Translations under genes and position numbers: made by a program
The notes under the pieces: generated by a model
What the model was told of the DNA's origin: nothing
Seen by the model: the letters and a program-made list of their open reading frames with translations, nothing else
The model's database searches: none
Source: Zoroaster sp. YZ-2022
Taxonomy: Eukaryota > Echinodermata > Asteroidea > Forcipulatida > Zoroasteridae
Direction of reading: 5' to 3'
Assembly: GCA_029582265.1 (NCBI GenBank)
Contig: CM055817.1
Coordinates: 56,989,750 to 57,053,749 of the forward strand
DNA: 64,000 bases
Part shown: in pieces, positions 17,439 to 45,000 of the stretch
Layout: each line of letters begins with the position of its first letter
Numbering within the stretch: the stretch's first letter is position 1

Positions 17439-20400
17439 CTATAAAGAACAACAATAAAGAACAATAAAGAACAACAATAAAGAACAACAATAGAGAACAA
17501 CAATAGAGAACAACAATAGAGAACAACAATAGAGAACAACAATAGAGAACAACAATAGAGAACAACAATAGAGAACAACAATAGAGAACAACAATAGAGA
17601 ACAACAATAGAGAACAACAATAGAGAACAACAATAGAGAACAACAATAGAGAACAACAATAGAGAACAACAATAAAGAACAACAATATAGAACAACAATA
17701 AAGAACAGCAATAAAGAACAGCAATAAAGAACAACAATAAAGAACAACAATACAACCAAAATATTCAAAAATATGTCAGTACATTGTATATATATAAATG
17801 TAACTGGCTCTGGCAAAACCCGAAACTTGGACCCAATTTTCAAAAGTGATATTTTGGTATAGTTTGATTCTCTAGATTTTGTTTTCCTCCTTCATTTGAT
17901 ACCAGTTTTGTAGAAATCAGACAAAAATGTTTTCTTATATTTTTTTTCTTATATTATAAGAAAAATATTTTTTTTCCTGATTTCTACAAATCTGGTATCA
18001 AATGAAAGAGGAAAATCTAGAGAATCAAACTATACTAAAATCTCACTTTAATAATTGGGTCCTAGTTTAGGGTTTTGGGCAGAGCCAGTTACATATATTC
18101 CTCCAACATGATTTAGAAGTGTTTTCATAATTGGGAACCAATTATCAAATATATATTTTAGCATGTCCTTTCCATTACTTACAACAATATAAGAGAAAGG
18201 AGTGTTCTCTATGGATATACTTTTTCCAACCCCTATTTTCTGGCATTGTGTGATTTGTCCATGTGTACCCTCTTTTTTGAAAGAACTTTTGAGTTCTGTT
18301 TTTGCCTGAAAACAATACAATATTGTCAATGTATGATTTGACAGTAACCATGCACCTAAATGAACTGAAGATTTAAGACTTAATTGTTCAATGTTTTATT
18401 TTAATGGAAGAATTGTTTTCCTTTCTAAGTGGAAAATAGCAAAATACTTCCTAATGAAACCCAAAGATGAAATATCTTCTTTTGAAAGCAGAAACCATAT
18501 AAAATCATGACTCACCTGCCACAGGTATTAGATCGCCAAGTCCTAAATACAAACAAGAAAAATATACGACAAGTATTAAATCTGACATCACAAACTTCTC
18601 AAGCAATGGTGTAGTTTGCCTCCACTGAAGCATAAAGGCTACTAATCTCTATTCCTGTTCCCCTTCATCCATCTCCTTCCACTGAAATAATCCTCAGAGG
18701 TTTTGCCGCTTTTCTAAAATTTATGAAAATACTCACTCTGCCGGTTTCAAAAAGAAAAAATTAACAAGCTGATTAACCCTTTCATTACCGATTTGTTTCA
18801 ACAGGATGTCCCACTGGTTACCGAATTGTTTGCCCAGTCATGCATGAATTCACACATTATTGCACAACAGTATGCATCCATTTACAGGCACTTTTTCTAA
18901 ACTCGTTTTTCATCATGAAGAATTTGTTGGAGAAAGATATATTCAATGAAATGATTGTTGCTTACGAAATTCCCTTTCATATGATACCAAAATCATTGGC
19001 ATTGCATATAAAATGATCGGGTTATTTAATTTACTTCCCCTAACTTTGTTTCACAAACACAGAGAGCATTTTGTACACAAGTGTATGGCATTCCATAGTA
19101 CAAATGGCCATTGAAATGATTGACTTGTATTATGTCTGATTTCTATAATAGCAACATGTAGGTTGGGCTATACCATTAGAAAGATAGGGAATCAGTCTTT
19201 CCAACCATATATAGCATGGGTATGGACTGCGAAGAATGAAAAAAATACAGCTGTTTTAAAAGCTGGTCATGATACTCCCAATTAATTGCTGTGTGTGTGG
19301 TGACCTTGGTCGACTAAAGTCGCCAATGGTAAGTAACAGGGGGTATGTGTGATGTGGACTAAAGTCGCCAATGGTAGTGAAAGGGTTAAATAACTAACAA
19401 CTTGAACACTCATTGCATTCTGTGCGGACAATTTTCACTTTGACAAAGAATTAAGAGGTCATAGGAACTTCTGTCTGTCCCCACAATATTCTTTGATCCT
19501 CATAACATCAATTGTTAATTGACAATAAAGTCTGAAAGCTTCAAATAACATCATACAATATTACTCACCATCTGAATTGCCATTTGGATCTGTTGGGAAA
19601 TCATAATATAATTCTGATGAAAACAAAATAAAAAAACAAACACAACACCACAACAAATAAAGACTCCATTGTTGGTAAGTCCTCAGATTTTACTAAGTTA
19701 TTAAATAAGTAAGACTAATTGCGGTGACACCATGTGAAATTCTCAATTGAGTAGTAATTAGTTCTGAAAAGAACTGGAGGTACAACCAGTTCTTTTCAGA
19801 ACTAATTACTACTCAATTGAGAATTTCACATGGTGTCACCGCAATTAGTCTTACTTATCCTGTTGAAAACAATTTCAACAGTCACTTTCAGCTCACAAAT
19901 TGAAAGCATTTTTCATTAAATGAGTGATTAGAATCAAAATGGTTTGTCTTCTGTTTGAAAACTTGACAAGACCTCGGACTTGCGTTTCTTTTGCTGTCCT
20001 CGGACTTGCGTTTCTTTTGCTGTTCAGTATATTTAAGTCTTATCATCTTTTGTTGACACCATCTATTTTTCCATCTATTTTTCCATCTATTTTTCCATCT
20101 ATTTTTCCATCTATTTTTCCATCTATTTTTCCATCTATTTTTCCATCTATTTTTCCATCTATTTTTCCATCTATTTTTCCATCTATTTTTCCATCTATTT
20201 TTCCATCTGGAAAATCATTTAACTATGGTTTTAAAGCAACAATATTATAACGATCATTAGGGCATGGTATCAGAGTGCTAGTTTAGATAAATACAGCCAC
20301 TGAAAATAATACCTGACATATTATCATTGCTGCTTTATAAATGAGTCAATAATACCTGACATATTATCATTGCTGCTTTATAAATGAGTCAATAATACCT

Positions 20401-23400
20401 GACATATTATCATTGCTGCTTTATAAATGAGTCAATAATACCTCACATATTATCATTGCTGCTTTATAAATGAGTCAATAATACCTCACATATTATCATT
20501 GCTGCTTTATAAATGAGTCAATAATACCTCACATATTATCATTGCTGCTTTATAAATGAGTCAATAATACCTGACATATTATCATTGCTGCTTTATAAAT
20601 GAGTCAATAATACCTGACATATTATCATTGCTGCTTTATAAATGAGTCAATAATACCTGACATATTATCATTGCTGCTTTATAAATGAGTCAATAATACC
20701 TCACATATTATCATTGCTGCTTTATAAATGAGTCAATAATACCTCACATATTATCATTGCTGCTTTATAGATGAGTCAATAGCCTCACATATTATCATTG
20801 CTGCTTTATAAATGAGTCAATAATACCTGACATATTATCATTGCTGCTTTATAAATGAGTCAATAATACCTCACATATTATCATTGCTGCTTTATAAATG
20901 AGTCAATAATACCTCACATATTATCATTGCTGCTTTATAAATGAGTCAATAATACCTCACATATTATCATTGCTGCTTTATAAATGAGTCAATAATACCT
21001 GACATATTATCATTGCTGCTTTATAAATGAGTCAATAATACCTGACATATTATCATTGCTGCTTTATAAATGAGTCAATAATACCTCACATATTATCATT
21101 GCTGCTTTATAAATGAGTCAATAATACCTCACATATTATCATTGCTGCTTTATAAATGAGTCAATAATACCTCACATATTATCATTGCTGCTTTATAAAT
21201 GAGTCAATAATACCTGACATATTATCATTGCTGCTTTATAAATGAGTCAATAATACCTGACATATTATCATTGCTGCTTTATAAATGAGTCAATAATACC
21301 TCACATATTATCATTGCTGCTTTATAAATGAGTCAATAATACCTGACATATTATCATTGCTGCTTTATAAATGAGTCAATAATACCTGACATATTATCAT
21401 TGCTGCTTTATAAATGAGTCAATAATACCTGACATATTATCATTGCTGCTTTATAAATGAGTCAATAATACCTGACATATTATCATTGCTGCTTTATAAA
21501 TGAGTCAATAATACCTGACATATTATCATTGCTGCTTTATAAATGAGTCAATAATACCTGACATATTATCATTGCTGCTTTATAAATGAGTCAATAATAC
21601 CTGACATATTATCATTGCTGCTTTATAAATGAGTCAATAATACCTCACATATTATCATTGCTGCTTTATAAATGAGTCAATAATACCTCACATATTATCA
21701 TTGCTGCTTTATAAATGAGTCAATAATACCTGACATATTATCATTGCTGCTTTATAAATGAGTCAATAATACCTGACATATTATCATTGCTGCTTTATAA
21801 ATGAGTCAATAATACCTGACATATTATCATTGCTGCTTTATAAATGAGTCAATAATACCTCACATATTATCATTGCTGCTTTATAAATGAGTCAATAATA
21901 CCTCACATATTATCATTGCTGCTTTATAAATGAGTCAATAATACCTCACATATTATCATTGCTGCTTTATAAATGAGTCAATAATACCTGACATATTATC
22001 ATTGCTGCTTTATAAATGAGTCAATAATACCTGACATATTATCATTGCTGCTTTATAAATGAGTCAATAATACCTCACATATTATCATTGCTGCTTTATA
22101 AATGAGTCAATAATACCTGACATATTATCATTGCTGCTTTATAAATGAGTCAATAATACCTCACATATTATCATTGCTGCTTTATAAATGAGTCAATAAT
22201 ACCTCACATATTATCATTGCTGCTTTATAAATGAGTCAATAATACCTCACATATTATCATTGCTGCTTTATAAATGAGTCAATAATACCTCACATATTAT
22301 CATTGCTGCTTTATAAATGAGTCAATAATACCTCACATATTATCATTGCTGCTTTATAAATGAGTCAATAATACCTCACATATTATCATTGCTGCTTTAT
22401 AAATGAGTCAATAATACCTCACATATTATCATTGCTGCTTTATAAATGAGTCAATAATACCTGACATATTATCATTGCTGCTTTATAAATGAGTCAATAA
22501 TACCTGACATATTATCATTGCTGCTTTATAAATGAGTCAATAATACCTCACATATTATCATTGCTGCTTTATAAATGAGTCAATAATACCTCACATATTA
22601 TCATTGCTGCTTTATAAATGAGTCAATAATACCTCACATATTATCATTGCTGCTTTATAAATGAGTCAATAATACCTCACATATTATCATTGCTGCTTTA
22701 TAAATGAGTCAATAATACCTGACATATTATCATTGCTGCTTTATAAATGAGTCAATAATACCTGACATATTATCATTGCTGCTTTATAAATGAGTCAATA
22801 ATACCTGACATATTATCATTGCTGCTTTATAAATGAGTCAATAATACCTCACATATTATCATTGCTGCTTTATAAATGAGTCAATAATACCTCACATATT
22901 ATCATTGCTGCTTTATAAATGAGTCAATAATACCTGACATATTATCATTGCTGCTTTATAAATGAGTCAATAATACCTGACATATTATCATTGCTGCTTT
23001 ATAAATGAGTCAATAATACCTGACATATTATCATTGCTGCTTTATAAATGAGTCAATAATACCTCACATATTATCATTGCTGCTTTATAAATGAGTCAAT
23101 AATACCTGACATATTATTATTGCTGCTTTATAAATGAGTCAATAATACCTGACATATTATCATTGCTGCTTTATAAATGAGTCAATAATACCTGACATAT
23201 TATCATTGCTGCTTTATAAATGAGTCAATAATACCTCACATATTATCATTGCTGCTTTATAAATGAGTCAATAATACCTCACATATTATCATTGCTGCTT
23301 TATAAATGAGTCAATAATACCTCACATATTATCATTGCTGCTTTATAAATGAGTCAATAATACCTGACATATTATCATTGCTGCTTTATAAATGAGTCAA

Positions 23401-26400
23401 TAATACCTGACATATTATCATTGCTGCTTTATAAATGAGTCAATAATACCTCACATATTATCATTGCTGCTTTATAAATGAGTCAATAATACCTGACATA
23501 TTATCATTGCTGCTTTATAGATGAGTCAATAATACCTCACATATTATCATTGCTGCTTTATAAATGAGTCAATAATACCTCACATATTATCATTGCTGCT
23601 TTATAAATGAGTCAATAATACCTCACATATTATCATTGCTGCTTTATAAATGAGTCAATAATACCTGACATATTATCATTGCTGCTTCATAAATGAGTCA
23701 ATAATACCTGACATATTATCATTGCTGCTTTATAAATGAGTCAATAATACCTCACATATTATCATTGCTGCTTTATAAATGAGTCAATAATACCTCACAT
23801 ATTATCATTGCTGCTTTATAAATGAGTCAATAATACCTGACATATTATCATTGCTGCTTTATAAATGAGTCAATAATACCTGACATATTATCATTGCTGC
23901 TTTATAGATGAGTCAATAATACCTGACATATTATCATTGCTGCTTCATAAATGAGTCAATAATACCTGACATATTATCATTGCTGCTTTATAAATGAGTC
24001 AATAATACCTCACATATTATCATTGCTGCTTTATAAATGAGTCAATAATACCTCACATATTATCATTGCTGCTTTATAAATGAGTCAATAATACCTCACA
24101 TATTATCATTGCTGCTTTATAAATGAGTCAATAATACCTGACATATTATCATTGCTGCTTTATAGATGAGTCAATAATACCTGACATATTATCATTGCTG
24201 CTTTATAAATGAGTCAATAATACCTGACATATTATCATTGCTGCTTCATAAATGAGTCAATAATACCTCACATATTATCATTGCTGCTTTATAGATGAGT
24301 CAATAATACCTGACATATTATCATTGCTGCTTTATAGATGAGTCAATAATACCTGACATATTATCATTGCTGCTTCATAAATGAGTCAATAATACCTCAC
24401 ATATTATCATTGCTGCTTTATAGATGAGTCAATAATACCTGACATATTATCATTGCTGCTTTATAGATGAGTCAATAATACCTGACATATTATCATTGCT
24501 GCTTTATAAATGAGTCAATAATACCTCACATATTATCATTGCTGCTTTATAAATGAGTCAATAATACCTGACATATTATCATTGCTGCTTTATAAATGAG
24601 TCAATAATACCTGACATATTATCATTGCTGCTTTATAAATGAGTCAATAATACCTCACATATTATCATTGCTGCTTTATAAATGAGTCAATAATACCTCA
24701 CATATTATCATTGCTGCTTTATAGATGAGTCAATAATACCTGACATATTATCATTGCTGCTTTATAGATGAGTCAATAATACCTGACATATTATCATTGC
24801 TGCTTTATAAATGAGTCAATAATACCTGACATATTATCATTGCTGCTTTATAGATGAGTCAATAATACCTGACATATTATCATTGCTGCTTTATAAATGA
24901 GTCAATAATACCTGACATATTATCATTGCTGCTTTATAAATGAGTCAATAATACCTGACATATTATCATTGCTGCTTTATAGATGAGTCAATAATACCTG
25001 ACATATTATCATTGCTGCTTTATAAATGAGTCAATAATAGTACCTGACATATTATCATTGCTGCTTCATAAATGAGTCAATAATACCTGACATATTATCA
25101 TTGCTGCTTTATAAATGAGTCAATAATACCTCACATATTATCATTGCTGCTTTATAAATGAGTCAATAATACCTCACATATTATCATTGCTGCTTTATAA
25201 ATGAGTCCATAATACCTCACATATTATCATTGCTGCTTTATAAATGAGTCAATAATACCTGACATATTATCATTGCTGCTTTATAGATGAGTCAATAATA
25301 CCTGACATATTATCATTGCTGCTTTATAAATGAGTCAATAATACCTGACATATTATCATTGCTGCTTCATAAATGAGTCAATAATACCTCACATATTATC
25401 ATTGCTGCTTTATAGATGAGTCAATAATACCTGACATATTATCATTGCTGCTTTATAGATGAGTCAATAATACCTGACATATTATCATTGCTGCTTCATA
25501 AATGAGTCAATAATACCTCACATATTATCATTGCTGCTTTATAGATGAGTCAATAATACCTGACATATTATCATTGCTGCTTTATAGATGAGTCAATAAT
25601 ACCTGACATATTATCATTGCTGCTTTATAAATGAGTCAATAATACCTGACATATTATCATTGCTGCTTTATAAATGAGTCAATAATACCTGACATATTAT
25701 CATTGCTGCTTTATAAATGAGTCAATAATACCTGACATATTATCATTGCTGCTTTATAAATGAGTCAATAATACCTGACATATTATCATTGCTGCTTTAT
25801 AAATGAGTCAATAATACCTCACATATTATCATTGCTGCTTTATAAATGAGTCAATAATACCTCACATATTATCATTGCTGCTTTATAAATGAGTCAATAA
25901 TACCTGACATATTATCATTGCTGCTTTATAAATGAGTCAATAATACCTGACATATTATCATTGCTGCTTTATAAATGAGTCAATAATACCTGACATATTA
26001 TCATTGCTGCTTTATAAATGAGTCAATAATACCTGACATATTATCATTGCTGCTTTATAAATGAGTCAATAATACCTGACATATTATCATTGCTGCTTTA
26101 TAAATGAGTCAATAATACCTGACATATTATCATTGCTGCTTTATAGATGAGTCAATAATACCTGACATATTATCATTGCTGCTTTATAAATGAGTCAATA
26201 ATACCTGACATATTATCATTGCTGCTTTATAAATGAGTCAATAATACCTGACATATTATCATTGCTGCTTTATAAATGAGTCAATAATACCTGACATATT
26301 ATCATTGCTGCTTTATAAATGAGTCAATAATACCTGACATATTATCATTGCTGCTTTATAAATGAGTCAATAATACCTGACATATTATCATTGCTGCTTT

Positions 26401-29400
26401 ATAAATGAGTCAATAATACCTGACATATTATCATTGCTGCTTCATAAATGAGTCAATAATACCTGACATATTATCATTGCTGCTTTATAAATGAGTCAAT
26501 AATACCTGACATATTATCATTGCTGCTTTATAAATGAGTCAATAATACCTGACATATTATCATTGCTGCTTTATAAATGAGTCAATAATACCTGACATAT
26601 TATCATTGCTGCTTTATAAATGAGTCAATAATACCTCACATATTATCATTGCTGCTTTATAAATGAGTCAATAATACCTGACATATTATCATTGCTGCTT
26701 CATAAATGAGTCAATAATACCTGACATATTATCATTGCTGCTTTATAAATGAGTCAATAATACCTGACATATTATCATTGCTGCTTTATAAATGAGTCAA
26801 TAATACCTGACATATTATCATTGCTGCTTTATAAATGAGTCAATAATACCTGACATATTATCATTGCTGCTTTATAAATGAGTCAATAATACCTGACATA
26901 TTATCATTGCTGCTTTATAAATGAGTCAATAATACCTGACATATTATCATTGCTGCTTTATAAATGAGTCAATAATACCTGACATATTATCATTGCTGCT
27001 TTATAAATGAGTCAATAATACCTCACATATTATCATTGCTGCTTTATAAATGAGTCAATAATACCTGACATATTATCATTGCTGCTTTATAAATGAGTCA
27101 ATAATACCTGACATATTATCATTGCTGCTTTATAAATGAGTCAATAATACCTGACATATTATCATTGCTGCTTTATAAATGAGTCAATAATACCTGACAT
27201 ATTATCATTGCTGCTTCATAAATGAGTCAATAATACCTGACATATTATCATTGCTGCTTTATAAATGAGTCAATAATACCTGACATATTATCATTGCTGC
27301 TTTATAAATGAGTCAATAATACCTGACATATTATCATTGCTGCTTTATAAATGAGTCAATAATACCTGACATATTATCATTGCTGCTTTATAAATGAGTC
27401 AATAATACCTGACATATTATCATTGCTGCTTTATAAATGAGTCAATAATACCTGACATATTATCATTGCTGCTTCATAAATGAGTCAATAATACCTGACA
27501 TATTATCATTGCTGCTTTATAAATGAGTCAATAATACCTGACATATTATCATTGCTGCTTTATAAATGAGTCAATAATACCTGACATATTATCATTGCTG
27601 CTTTATAAATGAGTCAATAATACCTGACATATTATCATTGCTGCTTTATAAATGAGTCAATAATACCTCACATATTATCATTGCTGCTTTATAAATGAGT
27701 CAATAATACCTCACATATTATCATTGCTGCTTTATAAATGAGTCAATAATACCTCACATATTATCATTGCTGCTTTATAAATGAGTCAATAATACCTCAC
27801 ATATTATCATTGCTGCTTTATAAATGAGTCAATAATACCTCACATATTATCATTGCTGCTTTATAAATGAGTCAATAATACCTGACATATTATCATTGCT
27901 GCTTTATAAATGAGTCAATAATACCTCACATATTATCATTGCTGCTTTATAGATGAGTCAATAATACCTGACATATTATCATTGCTGCTTTATAAATGAG
28001 TCAATAATACCTCACATATTATCATTGCTGCTTTATAAATGAGTCAATAATACCTCACATATTATCATTGCTGCTTTATAAATGAGTCAATAATACCTGA
28101 CATATTATCATTGCTGCTTCATAAATGAGTCAATAATACCTGACATATTATCATTGCTGCTTTATAAATGAGTCAATAATACCTGACATATTATCATTGC
28201 TGCTTTATAAATGAGTCAATAATACCTGACATATTATCATTGCTGCTTTATAAATGAGTCAATAATACCTGACATATTATCATTGCTGCTTTATAAATGA
28301 GTCAATAATACCTGACATATTATCATTGCTGCTTTATAAATGAGTCAATAATACCTGACATATTATCATTGCTGCTTTATAAATGAGTCAATAATACCTG
28401 ACATATTATCATTGCTGCTTTATAGATGAGTCAATAATACCTCACATATTATCATTGCTGCTTTATAAATGAGTCAATAATACCTCACATATTATCATTG
28501 CTGCTTTATAGATGAGTCAATAATACCTCACATATTATCATTGCTGCTTTATAAATGAGTCAATAATACCTGACATATTATCATTGCTGCTTTATAAATG
28601 AGTCAATAATACCTCACATATTATCATTGCTGCTTTATAAATGAGTCAATAATACCTGACATATTATCATTGCTGCTTTATAAATGAGTCAATAATACCT
28701 GACATATTATCATTGCTGCTTTATAAATGAGTCAATAATACCTCACATATTATCATTGCTGCTTTATAAATGAGTCAATAATACCTGACATATTATCATT
28801 GCTGCTTTATAAATGAGTCAATAATACCTGACATATTATCATTGCTGCTTTATAAATGAGTCAATAATACCTCACATATTATCATTGCTGCTTTATAAAT
28901 GAGTCAATAATACCTGACATATTATCATTGCTGCTTTATAAATGAGTCAATAATACCTGACATATTATCATTGCTGCTTTATAAATGAGTCAATAATACC
29001 TGACATATTATCATTGCTGCTTTATAAATGAGTCAATAATACCTCACATATTATCATTGCTGCTTTATAAATGAGTCAATAATACCTCACATATTATCAT
29101 TGCTGCTTTATAAATGAGTCAATAATACCTGACATATTATCATTGCTGCTTTATAAATGAGTCAATAATACCTCACATATTATCATTGCTGCTTTATAAA
29201 TGAGTCAATAATACCTCACATATTATCATTGCTGCTTTATAAATGAGTCAATAATACCTCACATATTATCATTGCTGCTTTATAAATGAGTCAATAATAC
29301 CTGACATATTATCATTGCTGCTTTATAAATGAGTCAATAATACCTGACATATTATCATTGCTGCTTTATAAATGAGTCAATAATACCTGACATATTATCA

Positions 29401-32400
29401 TTGCTGCTTTATAAATGAGTCAATAATACCTGACATATTATCATTGCTGCTTTATAAATGAGTCAATAATACCTGACATATTATCATTGCTGCTTTATAA
29501 ATGAGTCAATAATACCTGACATATTATCATTGCTGCTTTATAAATGAGTCAATAATACCTGACATATTATCATTGCTGCTTTATAAATGAGTCAATAATA
29601 CCTCACATATTATCATTGCTGCTTTATAAATGAGTCAATAATACCTCACATATTATCATTGCTGCTTTATAAATGAGTCAATAATACCTCTCATATTATC
29701 ATTGCTGCTTTATAAATGAGTCAATAATACCTGACATATTATCATTGCTGCTTTATAAATGAGTCAATAATACCTGACATATTATCATTGCTGCTTTATA
29801 AATGAGTCAATAATACCTGACATATTATCATTGCTGCTTTATAAATGAGTCAATAATACCTGACATATTATCATTGCTGCTTTATAAATGAGTCAATAAT
29901 ACCTGACATATTATCATTGCTGCTTTATAAATGAGTCAATAATACCTGACATATTATCATTGCTGCTTTATAAATGAGTCAATAATACCTGACATATTAT
30001 CATTGCTGCTTTATAAATGAGTCAATAATACCTGACATATTATCATTGCTGCTTTATAAATGAGTCAATAATACCTGACATATTATCATTGCTGCTTTAT
30101 AAATGAGTCAATAATACCTGACATATTATCATTGCTGCTTTATAAATGAGTCAATAATACCTGACATATTATCATTGCTGCTTTATAAATGAGTCAATAA
30201 TACCTGACATATTATCATTGCTGCTTTATAAATGAGTCAATAATACCTCACATATTATCATTGCTGCTTTATAAATGAGTCAATAATACCTGACATATTA
30301 TCATTGCTGCTTTATAAATGAGTCAATAATACCTCACATATTATCATTGCTGCTTTATAAATGAGTCAATAATACCTGACATATTATCATTGCTGCTTTA
30401 TAAATGAGTCAATAATACCTCACATATTATCATTGCTGCTTTATAAATGAGTCAATAATACCTCACATATTATCATTGCTGCTTTATAAATGAGTCAATA
30501 ATATTCAGTGACTGTATTCATCTTAAATTAGGGCATTGATTCCATGCCCTGTTGAAAGTCTAGTCTGATCGTGATGATAGTGTCCCTTTAATGTAAAGGA
30601 AGGGGAATGGCAACTTGATTCTGACAAAAATTGATTCTGATAAAAACAAATAAAAATAAAAAATGTAATTTATGTTGTACGAATGCTAAACGTCTGCTAA
30701 ACGGGTATTTAATGGATAGCCCATCATTGACGTAACACATACCATAGTTGGCTTGAACTGCAAAGTCAGTCAGATGAGATGTACAGCAAACAAGTGGATC
30801 TAATTTCCCTTCTCGGAAAGTTTTCAGACCAGCACCTGACCATTCCTGTTTAGTCTCATTAAAGTATTTGCAGGTGCACTCTTCTACCACTGGAGAGAAG
30901 GTGATGTTGATGCATGAGCCTTCCATGCCACTTATAGGAATCACATTACCTGGACGTTAAAGAATTGCAAAACATTCATAAGCAAGACAACAAAAATGTC
31001 TCTTGTTGGTTGATCAATTTGGTCAATTTGGCTTGGTCAATTGGATCAAGTAGGTAAAACTTGTAGCTTTGCATGGTGAGGAGGATAAGTAAGACTAATT
31101 GCGGTGACACCATGTGAAATGCTCAATTGAGTAGTAATTAGTTCTGAAAAGAACTGGAGGTACAACTGGAGGTAGAACTGGAGTTATACCTCCAGTTCTT
31201 TTCAGAATTAATTACTACTCAATTGAGCATTTCACATGGTGTCACCGCAATTAGTCTTATGGATCAAGTAGCTTAGGTCAGTTTGGTTTTGCCAAAAAAC
31301 CTATGTAGAGATCTTTTAATGTAAATTTTATATATTGTTTTCTTTCATAGTCTCTCAAATGAAGAAACATCCAGTCTTACTCATGTTTTTGTTTATCCTG
31401 TCTTTGTTGTATTTTTTTTTAATTTATTTATTTTATTTTTATGGGTAGTTGTCAATCACAAGGCCTAAAACCAGGCCACTCAAGGTGAGGGCTAAAAGAT
31501 AAGGGGAAAGGGGATAAGAGAAGAGGAAATCAAAAAGTAGAAAGATGACTATTGACGTTGCGTTTGAATTGAGACAAGTTACAAATGGCAGGGAAGCAGG
31601 ATACAGGTAGTGAATTCCAAAGTAATGCAGTACATGGGAAGAAACTGGATAATTACCACCAGGTATTTGCTTTGGGGACAGATACAGTATAAGGATGTGA
31701 ATGAGTAGAGAAACATGTGGGTGCTACCAAAGGTACGGTTAGGTAGAACAACCAGTGAAAGTCCTTTGGAGCACCTAACATTATAATATCTGCAAAAGAG
31801 GCTCACTGAGGCTACAGAGTGACGGAGAGATAAGGGTTCCAGAGATGATGCCAAGTCATGTCCTACTAAATTTATAATGTCGTTGTATTATGTCGTATTG
31901 ATTGTATTTTGTCTGTACATATCCAAGTGTAAAAAAGCTCTACTTCCACTTTTTCCCTGCATATCAACATTATTTAATTTTTTTTGTAGTAATTAATTTA
32001 CAGCTAAAAGGTTTCTTGAATCTATCTTGATATATGTGTATGTATTGGTACAAATGATGTCAATATACAGATTTTAACCAAACATACCGTTTTCATCCAT
32101 TATGGTAATGGCTTTCATTGGTTGAACAAAACTTGTCCGTTTGCTCGCCTTGCTGTTATAGTCCGTATTGTCTTCAAACTCTTCTGTGTGCAGAGTGACG
32201 ATACGATCCTTTAATCTTGAAGGGAAATATCACAAAGAAAAACAATGTCAAATTTAATCACTCCTCCAAATAATAATGGTAACACAATTCTTATATTGTG
32301 CATATTACTGTGAACTTCCCAGGTGCTTCCAACATAGCCATTATTTTGTTCTCAAGGAAGGAACGGCATAACTGTTTTTAAAAAAATATTCGCCCACCTT

Positions 32401-33019: not shown

Positions 33020-36000
33020 AACAACAGGCGCATAAATTATTCCTGAAATCATCTCAGCTCCCTGGGGAGTATACAGCTCAATTGCTGCCATTTCGGCGCA
33101 TATAGGGCTAATCAAACACAACAACCAACTCTGCCCTCACAGGTACCCATTCACCCCTGGGCGGAGAGAAGCAATTATGGTAAAGTGTCTTGCTCAATGA
33201 CACAAGTACCACGGTCGCAGTCGGGATTCGAACCCACTTTCTGACGACTCAGCCATCAGAACACAACTCCGATGCACTAAACCGCTCGACCATGGCGCAA
33301 CAATTCTATGGGGATTCATACACATATCATTTAATAAAATGGCTGTGAAGTGCCCTATACTTGGTAGACTGGATGCATTTTTACCACTAGAGGGATATGA
33401 GCTTGTACTTACCTACAGTCTCCTATCAGACTCCTATCTCCTGGCATTTCTAAGTTGTCATGCACCTCTGATATTTTCTTCAATATCATTTTTCGTATCT
33501 CTTCTGTAAACTCTTCTGCATCATTTCCCACATATGCCTGCAGGATTTTTTTGATGTTTTCTATCAAGCTCTCTGCAGGAAATAAAGATATAAGCTATAT
33601 AAGATACATGTAAATGTTACAATGACATGCTGCGTATTTTTAATTAAAGGGACACTATCATCATGATCAGAGCAGACTTTCAACAGGGCATGGAATCGGT
33701 GTCCTAGTTTAACCCTAACCCTCCAGGGTATTTTGGCTAGAAACCCTGCCAGACACAACAGATTGCATCGTTTGTCAAAGTGACTTGACTGACTGCCCAG
33801 TGCAGCAAAATCCATCAGGTCACAAATCTCAAGGCCGAACTGCCTCAGAGTCTGTGGTCACCAAACGCAGCAGGATACAACTCTGGCAGTGTTCAATGGG
33901 ACCAGCTCTCAATAGAAACAGACTTGGCTGCTTATGCACTGGTGTTGACAGCTGAATCCATCAAAGTGCACCAAACTTTTCCACCTGATGCACTTTGCTG
34001 CGTCTGGCAGGGTTAGGGTTAAGATGAACACAGTGACTGAAAATTACTGGCTCAATTTTGCAGCAGCAACGGTAATATGACCTTATCATGTGGGAAATTA
34101 TTTTCAAGCACTTAGTGAAATTTAAAACTAGCACTCTGATTCCATGCCCTGTTGATTGTGACGATATTGTCCCTTTAAGTTAAGCTGATTTTACATTAGG
34201 TTGATCACTAGGCAAATAAGATTGAAATTACATTTGGTCAACGTCATACTGTAATGCTGATTCAAAATCGTTAGTTTGTTGGATAAGCAATTTTTGGTAA
34301 AACCTCAAAATGTGAGCACTGTTCGGGGCAACAAATGCTTGTTATGTTAGTTTCCCTTCACCCATGCAGCCCTGTGCGTTAATTGTAACCTTAATGTATA
34401 GAAAACAGATCAAGAGGTCAAAGGTCAACAAAGACCTGGACATATGTGACCCACTCTGGCAAAACCCGAAACTTCTCGGCATTTACCATAATGCAGCCAT
34501 GAAAACAGCCATGAAAAGGTCAAAAACTGACCCCCAGGGACAAGTTTGAGATTTTCATGTCACCATATAGAGCATTTTCTCTAGATTTTGATGGGAATTG
34601 AAAATCCTGAAACGCTGTTGGGAACATTGTTGGGTCAAAGTATCTCTGAAGGCACTTCCGTTAATTTGTTTTTACGATAAATATAGGAAGTCATTCCGAA
34701 AAGTTGGGTCCAAGTTTAGGGTTTTGCCAGAGCCAGTCACATATTTGTCCTTCAAATTGAGTTGATAAGAAAAGATTGCTTTTATTCAAAAGTCTGTGCT
34801 TTTATTCAAAAGTCTAAGAACTTATTTATAATAAAATAAGATCTTATAATGATCATAATCAGTTTTTGTAGAGAACAACATATTTTACTGAAATATCTGA
34901 AAATTATATCTTAAAATTATAATCATGACATGTCAGGTCACAATTAATGAAATATCAGTATATATCTATATCTTAAAATTATAATCATGACACGTCAGTC
35001 ACAATTGATAAAATATCAATATTCCATTTGCAATTTTTTTGTATCTTAACCTTGTATCTCTTTGCAATTAAACTCAACACAGAAATTGATCACACAAATA
35101 ATGAACAACTTACGTTTCTGCTCTAGTGTTTGTTCTTGTGGGATAACTTCTAAGTCAGAAACAATTGTGCCTCTCTGTGAAGAATCCAATATTCCAATAG
35201 CATCGGTCGCATTGGCCAAATATCGATAGTGTGAACTTAATTCCTCTTGGGTACCACGTTTCCTGCGTCTTCCTCCCGAAGCAGAAGTTTGTAAAAGAAG
35301 CGAATTCTTATGCACGGCTCCACTAGTATCTCCTACAAATAAACATGTTACCGAATAAATAAATACCATTTATTCATTAATTCATAAAACTTTGAAATGA
35401 AAAAACTCTAGACATGAAAGGTTGTGTTAACTCTTTGATGCACAGATTAATTCTATTAATTCTATTGTTTTAACGTGTTTTTGGCGGTCGCTAGCGACTG
35501 CCGTGTGCATCAAAGGGTTAATATACTATACTGTATATTATTGTGAAGGTAGAGATTCCTAACGCATTTGATTTCTCCTCTTAAAAGGACAAGATCATCA
35601 TGATCAGAGTAGACTTTCAACAGGGCATGGAATCGGTGTCCTAGTTTAAGATGAACATAGTGACTGAAAACTACTGGCTCATTTATGCAGCAGCAACGGT
35701 AATATGACGGGTATTATTTTCAGTCACTGACTTAATCTAAAACTAGCACTCTGATTCCATGCCCTGTTGATCGTGGCAATATTGTCCCTGTAGATAAAAA
35801 AATGTTATGATTGTTTTAAGAGTTACCCTTTTCCACATCCTCGTTTATGGCTGCCTGGATTGCATCGGTGTTCACTACTGTTGGAATAATCTGAACTATT
35901 CCACTGCTGTAGAAATCCTTACAAGTACGAGTCACATCACAAACCTGATAGCATAAGGAGATGAAGACATGATTAATGAATAGTCCTAATAAAAGGAGAT

Positions 36001-39000
36001 GAAGACATGATTAATGAATAGTCCTAATAAAAGGAGATGAAGACAGGATTAATGAATAGTCCAAATAAAAGGAGATGAAGACAGGATTAATGAATAGTCC
36101 TAATAAAAGGAGATGAAGACAGGATTAATGAATAGTCCTAATAAAAGGAGATGAAGACAGGATTAATGAATAGTCCTAATAAAAGGAGATGAAGACAGGA
36201 TTAATGAATAGTCCAAATAAAAGGAGATGAAGACAGGATTAATGAATAGTCCGAATAAAAGGAGATGAAGACAGGATTAATGAATAGTCCTAACATAAGG
36301 AGATGAAGACAGGATTAACCCTAACTCCCTAGACAACAAAGGCAGTTGGAGGATTTTGAAGGATTTTTATTGTTCAGTAACAATGCTTAGGGAGTTAGGG
36401 TTAATGAATAGTCCTAACATAAGGAGATGAAGACAGGATTAATGAATAGTCCTAATAAAAGGAGATGAAGACAGGATTAATGAATAGTCCAAATAAAAGG
36501 AGATGAAGACAGGATTAATGAATAGTCCGAATAAAAGGAGATGAAGACAGGATTAATGAATAGTCCTAATAAAAGGAGATGAAGACAGGATTAATGAATA
36601 GTCCTAATAAAAGGAGATGAAGACAGGATTAAAGAATAGTCCGAATAAAAGGAGATGAAGACAGGATTAAAGAATAGTCCGAATAAAAGGAGATGAAGAC
36701 AGGATTAATGAATAGTCCTAATAAAAGGAGATGAAGACAGGATTAATGAATAGTCCTAATAAAAGGAGATGAAGACAGGATTAATGAATAGTCCTAATAA
36801 AAGGAGATGAAGACAGGATTAATGAATAGTCCAAATAAAAGGAGATGAAGACAGGATTAATGAATAGTCCTAATAAAAGGAGATGAAGACAGGATTAATG
36901 AATAGTCCTAATAAAAGGAGATGAAGACAGGATTAATGAATAGTCCTAATAAAAGGAGATGAAGACAGGATTAATGAATAGTCCAAATAAAAGGAGATGA
37001 AGACAGGATTAATGAATAGTCCGAATAAAAGGAGATGAAGACAGGATTAATGAATAGTCCTAACATAAGGAGATGAAGACAGGATTAATGAATAGTCCTA
37101 ACATAAGGAGATGAAGACAGGATTAATGAATAGTCCTAATAAAAGGAGATGAAGACAGGATTAATGAATAGTCCTAATAAAAGGAGATGAAGACAGGATT
37201 AATGAATAGTCCTAATAAAAGGAGATGAAGACAGGATTAATGAATAGTCCAAATAAAAGGAGATGAAGACAGGATTAATGAATAGTCCAAATAAAAGGAG
37301 ATGAAGACAGGATTAATGAATAGTCCGAATAAAAGGAGATGAAGACAGGATTAATGAATAGTCCTAATAAAAGGAGATGAAGACAGGATTAATGAATAGT
37401 CCGAATAAAAGGAGATGAAGACAGGATTAATGAATAGTCCTAATAAAAGGAGATGAAGACAGGATTAATGAATAGTCCTAATAAAAGGAGATGAAGACAG
37501 GATTAATGAATAGTCCTAATAAAAGGAGATGAAGACAGGATTAATGAATAGTCCGAATAAAAGGAGATGAAGACAGGATTAATGAATAGTCCTAATAAAA
37601 GGAGATGAAGACAGGATTAATGAATAGTCCAATAACAGGAGATGAAGACAGGATTAATGAATAGTCCTAATAAAAGGAGATGAAGACAGGATTAATGAAT
37701 AGTCCTAATAAAAGGAGATGAAGACAGGATTAATGAATAGTCCTAATAAAAGGAGATGAAGACAGGATTAATGAATAGTCCTAATAAAAGGAGATGAAGA
37801 CAGGATTAAAGAATAGTCCGAATAAAAGGAGATGAAGACAGGATTAAAGAATAGTCCGAATAAAAGGAGATGAAGACAGGATTAAAGAATAGTCCAAATA
37901 AAAGGAGATGAAGACAGGATTAATGAATAGTCCGAATAAAAGGAGATGAAGACAGGATTAATGAATAGTCCGAATAAAAGGAGATGAAGACAGGATTAAT
38001 GAATAGTCCGAATAAAAGGAGATGAAGACATGATTAATGAATAGTCCGAATAAAAGGAGATGAAGACAGGATTAATGAATAGTCCTAATAAAAGGAGATG
38101 AAGACATGATTAATGAATAGTCCGAATAAAAGGAGATGAAGACAGGATTAATGAATAGTCCGAATAAAAGGAGATGAAGACATGATTAATGAATAGTCCT
38201 AATAAAAGGAGATGAAGACAGGATTAATGAATAGTCCAAATAAAAGGAGATGAAGACAGGATTAATGAATAGTCCTAATAAAAGGAGATGAAGACAGGAT
38301 TAATGAATAGTCCTAATAAAAGGAGATGAAGACAGGATTAATGAATAGTCCAAATAAAAGGAGATGAAGACAGGATTAATGAATAGTCCAAATAAAAGGA
38401 GATGAAGACAGGATTAATGAATAGTCCGAATAAAAGGAGATGAAGACATGATTAATGAATAGTCCGAATAAAAGGAGATGAAGACAGGATTAATGAATAG
38501 TCCGAATAAAAGGAGATGAAGACAGGATTAATGAATAGTCCGAATAAAAGGAGATGAAGACAGGATTAATGAATAGTCCTAATAAAAGGAGATGAAGACA
38601 GGATTAATGAATAGTCCTAATAAAAGGAGATGAAGACAGGATTAATGAATAGTCCTAATAAAAGGAGATGAAGACAGGATTAATGAATAGTCCTAACATA
38701 AGGAGATGAAGACAGGATTAATGAATAGTCCGAATAAAAGGAGATGAAGACAGGATTAATGAATAGTCCTAACATAAGGAGATGAAGACAGGATTAATGA
38801 ATAGTCCTAATAAAAGGAGATGAAGACAGGATTAATGAATAGTCCTAATAAAAGGAGATGAAGACAGGATTAATGAATAGTCCTAATAAAAGGAGATGAA
38901 GACAGGATTAATGAATAGTCCGAATAAAAGGAGATGAAGACAGGATTAATGAATAGTCCTAATAAAAGGAGATGAAGACAGGATTAATGAATAGTCCTAA

Positions 39001-42000
39001 TAAAAGGTGATGAAGACAGGATTAATGAATAGTCCTAACATAAGGAGATGAAGACAGGATTAATGAATAGTCCTAATAAAAGGAGATGAAGACAGGATTA
39101 ATGAATAGTCCGAATAAAAGGAGATGAAGACAGGATTAATGAATAGTCCTAACATAAGGAGATGAAGACAGGATTAATGAATAGTCCTAATAAAAGGGGA
39201 TGAAGACAGGATTAATGAATAGTCCTAATAAAAGGAGATGAAGACAGGATTAATGAATAGTCCGAATAAAAGGAGATGAAGACAGGATTAATGAATAGTC
39301 CTAACATAAGGAGATGAAGACAGGATTAATGAATAGTCCGAATAAAAGGAGATGAAGACAGGATTAATGAATAGTCCTAACATAAGGAGATGAAGACAGG
39401 ATTAATGAATAGTCCTAATAAAAGGAGATGAAGACAGGATTAATGAATAGTCCTAATAAAAGGAGATGAAGACAGGATTAATGAATAGTCCTAATAAAAG
39501 GAGATGAAGACAGGATTAATGAATAGTCCGAATAAAAGGAGATGAAGACAGGATTAATGAATAGTCCTAATAAAAGGAGATGAAGACAGGATTAATGAAT
39601 AGTCCTAATAAAAGGAGATGAAGACAGGATTAATGAATAGTCCTAATAAAAGGAGATGAAGACAGGATTAATGAATAGTCCAAATAAAAGGAGATGAAGA
39701 CAGGATTAATGAATAGTCCGAATAAAAGGAGATGAAGACAGGATTAATGAATAGTCCGAATAAAAGGAGATGAAGACAGGATTAATGAATAGTCCGAATA
39801 AAAGGAGATGAAGACATGATTAATGAATAGTCCGAATAAAAGGAGATGAAGACAGGATTAATGAATAGTCCTAATAAAAGGAGATGAAGACAGGATTAAT
39901 GAATAGTCCGAATAAAAGGAGATGAAGACAGGATTAAAGAAGTCCGAATAAAAGGAGATGAAGACAGGATTAATGAATAGTCCTAACATAAGGAGATGAA
40001 GACAGGATTAATGAATAGTCCGAATAAAAGGAGATGAAGACAGGATTAATGAATAGTCCTAATAAAAGGAGATGAAGACAGGATTAATGAATAGTCCTAA
40101 CATAAGGAGATGAAGACAGGATTAATGAATAGTCCTAATAAAAGGAGATGAAGACAGGATTAAAGAATAGTCCGAATAAAAGGAGATGAAGACAGGATTA
40201 ATGAATAGTCCTAATAAAAGGAGATGAAGACAGGATTAATGAATAGTCCTAACATAAGGAGATGAAGACAGGATTAATGAATAGTCCAAATAAAAGGAGA
40301 TGAAGACAGGATTAAAGAATAGTCCTAATAAAAGGAGATGAAGACAGGATTAATGAATAGTCCGAATAAAAGGAGATGAAGACATGATTAATGAATAGTC
40401 CTAACATAAGGAGATGAAGACAGGATTAATGAATAGTCCGAATAAAAGGAGATGAAGACAGGATTAATGAATAGTCCGAATAAAAGGAGATGAAGACAGG
40501 ATTAATGAATAGTCCGAATAAAAGGAGATGAAGACAGGATTAATGAATAGTCCTAATAAAAGGAGATGAAGACAGGATTAATGAATAGTCCAAATAAAAG
40601 GAGATGAAGACAGGATTAATGAATAGTCCAAATAAAAGGAGATGAAGACAGGATTAATGAATAGTCCGAATAAAAGGAGATGAAGACAGGATTAATGAAT
40701 AGTCCGAATAAAAGGAGATGAAGACAGGATTAATGAATAGTCCTAATAAAAGGAGATGAAGACAGGATTAATGAATAGTCCGAATAAAAGGAGATGAAGA
40801 CAGGATTAATGAATAGTCCTAATAAAAGGAGATGAAGACAGGATTAATGAATAGTCCGAATAAAAGGAGATGAAGACAGGATTAATGAATAGTCCGAATA
40901 AAAGGAGATGAAGACAGGATTAATGAATAGTCCTAATAAAAGGAGATGAAGACAGGATTAATGAATAGTCCTAATAAAAGGAGATGAAGACAGGATTAAT
41001 GAATAGTCCTAATAAAAGGAGATGAAGACAGGATTAATGAATAGTCCTAATAAAAGGAGATGAAGACAGGATTAAAGAATAGTCCGAATAAAAGGAGATG
41101 AAGACAGGATTAAAGAATAGTCCTAATAAAAGGAGATGAAGACAGGATTAAAGAATAGTCCGAATAAAAGGAGATGAAGACAGGATTAATGAATAGTCCG
41201 AATAAAAGGAGATGAAGACAGGATTAATGAATAGTCCTAATAAAAGGAGATGAAGACAGGATTAATGAATAGTCCGAATAAAAGGAGATGAAGACAGGAT
41301 TAATGAATAGTCCTAATAAAAGGAGATGAAGACAGGATTAATGAATAGTCCTAATAAAAGGAGATGAAGACAGGATTAATGAATAGTCCTAATAAAAGGA
41401 GATGAAGACAGGATTAATGAATAGTCCTAATAAAAGGAGATGAAGACAGGATTAATGAATAGTCCGAATAAAAGGAGATGAAGACAGGATTAATGAATAG
41501 TCCGAATAAAAGGCGATGAAGACAGGATTAATGAATAGTCCGAATAAAAGGAGATGAAGACAGGATTAATGAATAGTCCGAATAAAAGGAGATGAAGACA
41601 TGATTAATGAATAGTCCGAATAAAAGGAGATGAAGACAGGATTAATGAATAGTCCGAATAAAAGGAGATGAAGACATGATTAATGAATAGTCCTAATAAA
41701 AGGAGATGAAGACAGGATTAATGAATAGTCCTAATAAAAGGAGATGAAGACAGGATTAATGAATAGTCCAATAAAAGGAGATGAAGACAGGATTAATGAA
41801 TAGTCCTAATAAAAGGAGATGAAGACAGGATTAATGAATAGTCCGAATAAAAAGGAGAGATAGTCCTAATAAAGGAGATGAAGACAGGATTAATGAATAG
41901 TCCAAATAAAAGGAGATGAAGACAGGATTAATGAATAGTCCTAATAAAAGGAGATGAAGACAGGATTAATGAATAGTCCTAATAAAAGGAGATGAAGACA

Positions 42001-45000
42001 GGATTAATGAATAGTCCAAATAAAAGGAGATGAAGACAGGATTAATGAATAGTCCAAATAAAAGGAGATGAAGACAGGATTAATGAATAGTCCGAATAAA
42101 AGGAGATGAAGACATAATTAATGAATAGTCCAAATAAAAGGAGATGAAGACAGGATTAATGAATAGTCCGAATAAAAGGAGATGAAGACAGGATTAATGA
42201 ATAGTCCTAACATAAGGAGATGAAGACAGGATTAATGAATAGTCCTAATAAAAGGAGATGAAGACAGGATTAATGAATAGTCCTAATAAAAGGAGATGAA
42301 GACAGGATTAATGAATAGTCCGAATAAAAGGAGATGAAGACAGGATTAATGAATAGTCCGAATAAAAGGAGATGAAGACAGGATTAATGAATAGTCCTAA
42401 CATAAGGAGATGAAGACAGGATTAATGAATAGTCCGAATAAAAGGAGATGAAGACAGGATTAATGAATAGTCCTAACATAAGGAGATGAAGACAGGATTA
42501 ATGAATAGTCCTAATAAAAGGAGATGAAGACAGGATTAATGAATAGTCCTAATAAAAGGAGATGAAGACAGGATTAATGAATAGTCCTAATAAAAGGAGA
42601 TGAAGACAGGATTAATGAATAGTCCGAATAAAAGGAGATGAAGACAGGATTAATGAATAGTCCTAATAAAAGGAGATGAAGACAGGATTAATGAATAGTC
42701 CTAATAAAAGGAGATGAAGACAGGATTAATGAATAGTCCGAATAAAAGGAGATGAAGACAGGATTAACCCTAACTCCCTAGGCCCATTTGCTTAGACATA
42801 ACCTGAATCCTCCAAAATCCTTCAATTCTACAGTGTTAAAACCTCATATGACCTGAATCCTTCAAAATCCTCCAGCTTTTGGTACTTTGTGCCACTTGCC
42901 TGAATCCTCCAAAATCCTCCAGTGACAGGTTTAGGTAATGGAATTTTTGGGTATGGTGCTGGTGGAAGAAATTATTTTTACTGGATGTTTATGTTTTGGA
43001 GGCCACTCCCAACCACTAAATCTAACCCTTGACCCTTTAACCACTGTAAATATATGCATATGAAAACATATAATACCAGTGTTTTCCCTATATGTTTATA
43101 TTACTGGAGGGACTGCCTATTATGTGGTGTGTACAATACTTAGCTGCTGGGGGGACTGCCTATATGTGTTGTGTACAATACTCAGTTGCTGGGGGTGGAC
43201 TGCCTATATGTGTACAATACTTAGTTGCTGGGGGGACTGCCTATGTGTGTTGTGTACAACACTTAGTTGCTGGAGGGACTGCCTATACATTTATGTGTTG
43301 TGTACAATACTTATGCTGGGGAGACTGCCTATATGTGTTGTGTACAATACGTATGCTGGAGGGACTGCCTATAGTGTTGTGTACAACACTTAGTTGCTGG
43401 AGGGACAATACTTAAATACTGGGGGGTGGGACTGCCTATATGTATTGTGCAATACTTAATTGCTGGGGGGGGGAGGTCTGCCTATGTGTTGTTTACAACA
43501 ATATTTTTTGGTGGACTCAGATGTACATTTACCATCATTGCCATGAAGGTCTTTTCATGTGGTAGTTTTCCCATCATCACTGTCCTTTTATTTATTTATT
43601 TCATCTTTTCTTTTCTTTTCAGTATGAAACAATTTTCTTTTCTTTGGTTTCCTTTGGTTATTCATCATGATACTTTTTGTTAGTTAACTTTTCTTTGTCC
43701 GTTGACTTTTGTTGGGATAGTGTGGTAATTTTCCATCATCACTGTCCTTTTATTTATTTATTTCATCTTTTCTTTTCTTTTCAGTATGAAACAATTTTTT
43801 CTTTTTTCTTGGCTTCCTTTGGTTATTCATCATGATACCTTTTTGTTATTTAACTTTTCTTTTTCGTTGACTTATTTTGGGATAGTTTGGTAGTTTTCCA
43901 TCATTACTGTCCCTTTTTGTTTTTTTCTTTCGGTATGGACAAATTTTCATGTTGGTTACTTCTTTTCTTTGACTTCTTTTGGTTTTCTTTATTTCTTTAA
44001 AATTTGTTAACTTTTCCCTGGCTTTTTCTAATCCTCCCTTCTCCTCTGCTTATTTTCCTTCCTCTGCTTCTTCTGTGTCTCCTCTTTCTCTGTCTGCTTC
44101 TTTTGCATCTTCTTCCTCTTTCTGCTTCTGCTTCTGCTTCTTTCGGGCTGTTTGGGAACTGATGTGGTGGTATCTGCTGTCGAGGTGTCGCTGGTTGTGT
44201 CCTGTCTCCTTGCAACTTCATGGAACTTTATAAAGCATCGTCCAGGACACAGGTTGATCATACAGACCTGGCATCCATGCCTGGTAGTTTTTATGCGGCC
44301 TGACTTAGTGACACCCTCATGGTGAAGACACCATCTGCATCGCTTCGTAAACACCCGCACCTTTGTGGAGGAGTGACCGGTGATGTTATGGCTGGGAATG
44401 GATCTGGATGATTTGTTTTGTGGATAGGTGGAGCTGCCAGCGTATCCATCAATTAACTCTGTACCGAAAGACAACACAAACTGGCTGTGGGTGAGTATGT
44501 TTGACGATGGGACATCGCTGACATCGCTGTCTTCTGTTGGAGCGGCATCGCAGTGGTGTTGCATGTATGCAATGTATCCGTTGACTCGAGCAATGTCCAC
44601 CAAGAAATACAAAATCTTTTTCCACCAAAACTGTGCTTTCCTGGAACAGGTATGATAGGCACGGAGTTGATCACCCTGTCCACGCCGCCCATGAACTTTG
44701 TATAATCACACACCTGTGGAGGGCAGGAATGACTTGAGATACTCGGCGGCCGGTGTCATCATCGGAATTTTCTTGTGACATTGTGTACGTAAGGGTCCTC
44801 CAACCTGGATGGGCAGTAGACAATGTAAGCATTATCCGGCTGTCTTTCCATGCAGTGACAACAATTTGGCCACTTTGTCGGTTATAAAATGTTCTCGTGG
44901 AACTCGGTTCATCTTTTTGCACGATCCCTACTGGGGTTCTTAGCGGTATTCAGGAGTTCACGAGGGAGACCTCTGCTGGTGCTCTTCACGGCGCCCGGTG

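Follow-up and report, generated by a model that had tools for sequence, protein, structure and literature searches.

The expanded element and its tandem array

We analysed 64,000 nucleotides of the sea star Zoroaster sp. YZ-2022 (contig CM055817.1, positions 56,989,750 to 57,053,749, hereafter the window), in which one copy of a miniature inverted-repeat transposable element (MITE) family, here called family A, contains a long tandem array that likely lies within an intron of a REJ/GPS-type gene. The expanded copy carries TTAA at both outer ends (20231-20234 and 30588-30591) and consists, on the plus strand, of a left arm (20231-20304), an array of 43-bp units (20305-30503) and a right arm (30504-30591). 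Both arms align to other family A copies in the window; the outer end of the left arm is degraded and reads AGCAA, compared with AGGGA or similar in the sister copies. Tandem Repeats Finder returned a single array with a period of 43, 237.2 copies and 98% matches, and a separate division into units gave 237, of which 236 are 43 bp and one is 41 bp long, with one 3-bp gap separating two neighbouring units. This count, made between the TTAA-flanked arms in the assembly, agrees with an earlier note on this DNA, which had described a family A MITE at 20231-30591 inflated by about 237 units. The expansion of roughly 50-fold given there comes near the measured value of about 45-fold (10,361 bp against 229 bp). 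Chance was ruled out as the source of the array, as the junction between units was matched 234 times, against 0 in 100 shuffled sequences.

Arrays with units that are 98% alike are hard to assemble, and the length of this one could in principle stem from a short array that was inflated or a longer one that was collapsed. The composition of the array makes this unlikely. There are 10 unit sequence types, five of them singletons, and the commonest accounts for 126 of the 237 units. The variant types are unevenly spread, with types C and D found only in units 74-188 (numbered 0-236), and the longest repeated block with at least two rare types comprises nine units, so that nothing points to the duplication of a large block. 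On either side, moreover, arm and junction are preserved intact, and an error of this kind would concern the copy number and not the existence of the array.

With a length of about 225-230 bp, inverted-repeat ends (hairpin z -8.3) and a high copy number, family A has the properties of a MITE, and judging by its length it is presumably non-coding. For genome-wide counts, 1.0 Gb in 616 contigs were searched, with the window located at C2:56989750-57053749; all match numbers are complete totals. A 29-base pattern covering the loop edge of unexpanded copies, with up to 3 mismatches allowed, had 23,659 matches, with 0 for the control, and family A is therefore very numerous. The TTAA target site on both sides of the expanded copy is that of T2-MITEs, or Kolobok-type MITEs, whose inverted repeats end in AGGRR (PMC6004289). 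This motif, which the Xmix/Xstir elements discussed below also have, fits the right end of the expanded copy (AGGGA), but not its left end (AGCAA), and fits both ends of the family A copy at 733-956. We also considered a piggyBac-type MITE, which would show a CC[C/T]T terminal motif beside the TTAA, and rejected this identity, as family A reads TTAA-AGGG inward from the left.

Origin of the unit from the MITE loop

Five sister copies of family A lie in the same window. The unexpanded copy at 52330-52558 (plus strand) served as reference and, as single-stranded DNA, folds into one long hairpin (-46.5 kcal/mol, z -8.3, 0/200 shuffles as good) with the segment amplified in the array as its loop. 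Three further copies are on the minus strand, namely an unexpanded one at 733-956, one at 35581-35788 with its own 11-bp loop deletion and without expansion, and one at 33644-34178, whose loop is likewise unexpanded and which is split at about 33709-34022 by a TTAA-type element with the ends TTAACCCTAAC / GTTAGGGTTAA. This element, a smaller one of the TTAACCCTAAC type, occupies a TTAA within the family A copy, and a 94% identical relative is found at 58088-58397. The fifth copy (59117-59856, plus strand) has an unexpanded loop as well, but contains an independent array in its left arm (59138-59704, 35 bp x 16.2), which by eye uses the arm segment between GATCAA and GATAAA. Each of the five retains one unexpanded loop edge, these being the five matches of the loop-edge pattern in the window outside the array. 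The 43-bp segment was thus left unexpanded in all five sisters, as had been proposed, and the copy at 59117-59856 expanded a different segment, a point absent from the earlier note.

Aligned to the middle of the unexpanded copies, the 43-bp unit lacks 11 bp and shows 5-8 substitutions among 42-43 aligned bases in each of six comparisons; one of the six, with the copy at 35581 that bears its own 11-bp deletion, is gapless. The earlier proposal that the unit can be derived from the unexpanded middle by an 11-bp deletion and a few changes is borne out by this alignment, and so is the view that MITE ends bracket an array of the element's own middle, given that the arms match the sister copies and the unit aligns to the loop. 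An alternative origin would be an unrelated minisatellite that entered, or was captured by, the MITE. Minisatellites are common in this genome: in a sample of twenty 10-kb stretches (200 kb), tandem sequence with a period of at least 10 made up 19,352 of 200,000 bases. Nevertheless, the base-by-base alignment to the MITE loop rules out an unrelated captured satellite, the arms take up where the array ends, at the boundaries of the loop, and the unit occurs nowhere else in the genome within 3 mismatches, so that we regard this origin as extremely improbable.

Distribution of the unit in the genome

A 35-base pattern from within the unit, with up to 3 mismatches allowed, had 237 matches genome-wide, and all 237 were in the window; the reversed control gave 0. 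The same was true for the pattern spanning the tandem junction (34 bases, up to 3 mismatches), with 234 matches in the genome, 234 in the window and 0 for the reversed pattern. Since genome and window counts are equal, the expansion is private to this locus within 3 mismatches and does not belong to a dispersed satellite. The existence of the unit as an independent satellite elsewhere, which the earlier note had named as a finding that would overturn its reading, can therefore be set aside at this level of mismatch, all matches lying in the array. Its phrase of a satellite-like array that arose in a transposon holds with regard to the array being inside the MITE, whereas the wording is too strong for a single-locus minisatellite.

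These counts also bear on the possibility that the array existed beforehand and rode in with the MITE, as in the Xmix MITE of Xenopus (a T2-MITE, Kolobok-type), which carries Xstir repeats. Such composites have been described (PMC6004289, PMC12628747), and other array-bearing family A copies do occur at several places in the genome, though as segmental duplicates. As in the Xstir case, the unit stems from the interior of the MITE, but it is found neither dispersed nor in free arrays. The absence of both unit and junction elsewhere in 1.0 Gb within 3 mismatches, together with the contrast of old arms and near-identical units (see below), renders a riding array quite unlikely, and on the former ground we rejected it for the 43-bp unit.

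Age, homogenisation and growth of the array

The 12 best of 25 family A copies compared, leaving one 18-bp match aside, share 80-85% identity with the left arm and 84-90% with the right arm. The mean pairwise divergence among 236 units, on the other hand, amounts to 1.75% and is mostly due to one site. The comparison of arms that are 80-90% identical with units that diverge by 1.75% indicates an old element with a young or recently homogenised array. By the time the units became uniform, or while they did so, the loop had thus diverged to about the same degree as the arms. At unit site 11, G is present in 152/236 units and C in 84; all four sister copies whose loop spans this site have C, and G has spread over it within the array. 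Neighbouring units are more alike than in shuffled arrays (0.504 at lag 1, 0/5000 shuffles). A higher-order structure of the 43-bp array was considered and dropped, as only the similarity of neighbours is firm.

In the unexpanded copies inspected, the loop is flanked by TAAT on the left in 12/12 and on the right in 11/12 cases, and the direct repeat flanking the loop of the expanded copy is AATAATA (7 bp). When 5,915 arbitrary pairs of breakpoints, spaced 30-70 bp, were taken from copy 52330, only 1.9% of the pairs had at least 4 bases in common.

The locus is probably best explained by a family A MITE that was inserted long ago, lost 11 bp of its loop, acquired a slippage-born duplication and grew to 237 units in place. 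The sequence itself shows where the unit came from, that it is private within 3 mismatches and that arms and units contrast in age; the steps of slippage and exchange are our inference. The course of events would begin with the old insertion of a near-palindromic, TTAA-targeting family A MITE of about 225 bp. As the sequence shows, its loop lost 11 bp and gained the substitutions common to all units, and was then tandemly multiplied with the arms retained. A first duplication could have arisen by replication slippage or by microhomology-mediated template switching between the TAAT / AATAATA repeats flanking the loop, possibly aided by the hairpin that the arms would form. Later growth and homogenisation may have proceeded by unequal exchange or gene conversion between units.

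Other arrays in family A and across the genome

Searching the genome for the tandem loop junction with a 32-base pattern, at up to 3 mismatches, gave 24 matches at nine places, with 0 in the window. Five of these places, on C2 (44.8-47.8 Mb), bear two loop units, and one of them (L009) shares 95-98% identity with each of the other four over the longest block; these shared blocks identify the five as segmental duplicates. The other four places, on C4 and C7 (L014, L024, L025 and L028), have 54-bp units in 12.1, 4.1, 5.1 and 4.1 copies, respectively. As their longest shared blocks are 94-97% identical and their copy numbers differ, they represent duplicates whose arrays have since changed length in place. 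Further arrays, among them 103-bp ones, flank all four places as well. With regard to the earlier note's suggestion to look in the genome for family A copies with the same or other arrays, these patterns gave tandem loop junctions at nine places and no other copy of the 43-bp unit at up to 3 mismatches.

A more general idea is that the MITE loop is a site of repeat birth, where slippage at the TAAT of the stem base started arrays at least three times (43-bp, 54-bp and 57/58-bp units); we put this forward as a tentative and rather doubtful suggestion. The nine places and the 23,659 loop-edge matches were obtained with patterns of unequal length (32 and 29 bases), and their ratio can only be taken as rough.

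In the 200-kb sample, family A matches were present at 14 places, fragments included, and one of these (L031:4042-4328) contains a two-copy 58-bp duplication of the left arm. Flanking inverted repeats were found for 5/24 arrays with readable flanks (window and sample combined, four further arrays at locus edges having been set aside), compared with 3/150 random controls. Among these five, only the 43-bp array shows a strong match, and three are weak matches outside family A. MITEs as the seed of most arrays in this genome are unsupported by these numbers, with 5/24 arrays flanked and 0/19 on family A, and the large copy number of the family may alone suffice for a few arrays.

Several points weigh against the scenario of slippage and growth in place, or against extending it to the family as a whole. 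The loop-flanking microhomology is short and AT-rich. Homogenisation may mask an older array, in which case "young" may mean "recently homogenised", and peaks in unit similarity at lags of 27-28 units (p 0.001-0.002) lose significance once it is taken into account that 60 lags were considered. Three array units fold no better than chance (z -0.5), and the hairpin can therefore not explain growth past the first step. The nine places with loop duplications were found by a pattern that required a tandem loop junction, and the agreement of their junctions is selected rather than independent; as the junction was a condition of the search, these places demonstrate that such cases recur, but are no proof that this junction is preferred. 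Finally, 0/19 sampled arrays with a period of at least 20 overlap the 14 family A places; in view of this and of the few flanked arrays, family A does not emerge as unusually array-prone.

Gene context and other repeats in the window

To characterise the surrounding gene, 60 of the 359 listed open reading frames (ORFs) were scanned, including 43 minus-strand ORFs below 20.2 kb. REJ matches were detected in minus-strand ORFs at 59837-60136 (E 8.3e-19) and 57741-58019 (E 1.6e-6), and a weak GPS match in the minus-strand ORF at 30591-30956 (E 0.0015; 19.4 bits, below the cut-off of 22.5). Inspected by eye, the sequence after the GPS exon contains a donor-like GTATGT at about 30742. The 43 minus-strand ORFs below 20.2 kb yielded no exon beyond the array. 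The location in an intron of a gamete-recognition-type gene, as previously claimed, is likely, being backed by the REJ exons, the weak GPS match and the donor-like site, while the exon on the far side is missing from the 43 ORFs.

Two 38-bp arrays at 35955-42767 and about 47882-51999 have the same unit and look like one array of ~11 kb that was split by a 5.1-kb element (about 42764-47881) with the ends TTAACCCTAAC / GTTAGGGTTAA. This element gives piggyBac-type transposase matches (DDE_Tnp_1_7, E 2.7e-10 at 45492-46034). At 35950-35960, by eye, the 38-bp array starts about ten bases from what is probably the 3' splice site of an exon on the minus strand. The presence of minus-strand REJ- and GPS-type exons nearby could suggest that the 43-bp array is retained for a function in the host gene, such as that of a regulatory element of variable length within the intron of a REJ-domain gene. 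However, the ~11-kb repeat array and the 5.1-kb transposon occupy the same gene region without obvious order, and the privacy of the 43-bp array is compatible with neutral drift; we consider such a function very unlikely.

Another repeat family is represented by two copies (34640-35022 and 53619-54358) that are 91.7% identical and contain a 62/63-bp tandem repeat with 2.3 and 7.9 units, respectively. By eye, a 91-bp array at 61714-62436 and a 74-bp array at L037:9358-10000 have sequence in common, in opposite orientation, which points to a further dispersed repeat that carries arrays.

Comparison with known array-bearing elements

The phenomenon as such is not new, as MITE-internal tandem arrays are already in print (PMC6004289, PMC12628747, PMC9659126). 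The closest likeness is to Xmix/Xstir, with a TTAA target site and a tandemly amplified internal MITE segment; Xstir is nevertheless a large repeat family with MITE-borne, free tandem and composite forms, whereas the 43-bp unit is confined to one locus. The miDNA4 MITE of Xenopus tropicalis (Scalvenzi and Pollet, as reported in PMC12628747 and PMC9659126) also has an internal array of variable copy number, whose expansion has been proposed to depend on the short, AT-rich direct repeats that flank it, but it is reported as a Tc1/mariner MITE with a repeat proposed to be captured, in contrast to the TTAA type of family A and a unit from its own loop. In Drosophila virilis, Tetris and its TIR-220 repeats resemble our case in being repeats within a foldback-like element, with copy-number alleles and arrays of up to 66 copies; they differ in having 220-bp units located in the terminal repeats and kb-size arrays similar to satellite DNA elsewhere, as opposed to a 43-bp loop unit at one place (PMC4079207). 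BrickBuilt of Porphyromonas gingivalis is a MITE that has leader and tail ends and contains a minisatellite of 23-bp units, but it is bacterial, with repeats in 19 copies across the genome (PMC4596501). At the level of mechanism, a general model of minisatellite birth, which concerns no particular family, assumes that a motif between direct repeats of 5-10 bp is duplicated and then amplified (Haber and Louis, as reported in PMC6947457); the flanking repeats measure 7 bp in the expanded copy and 4 bp in most others.

In the literature on sea urchin MITEs with tandem repeats and on sea urchin Kolobok elements, which was partially covered, no account of family A or of this locus was found, and this is weak evidence. 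Tandem repeat-containing MITEs of the clam Donax have reportedly been the subject of a paper. The MITE-internal amplification at 20231-30591 is real and an unusually large case of an already described route to tandem repeats.

How a tandem repeat began can usually no longer be traced. In this case, a single genome retains the parent sequence with its breakpoints, the MITE arms and unexpanded relatives by the tens of thousands. The combination of a known starting point and a single-locus unit makes the rates of minisatellite birth and growth measurable. Should the MITE loop indeed be a site of repeat birth, the more than 20,000 family A copies with one known starting sequence would constitute a natural experiment on the birth, growth and death of minisatellites.

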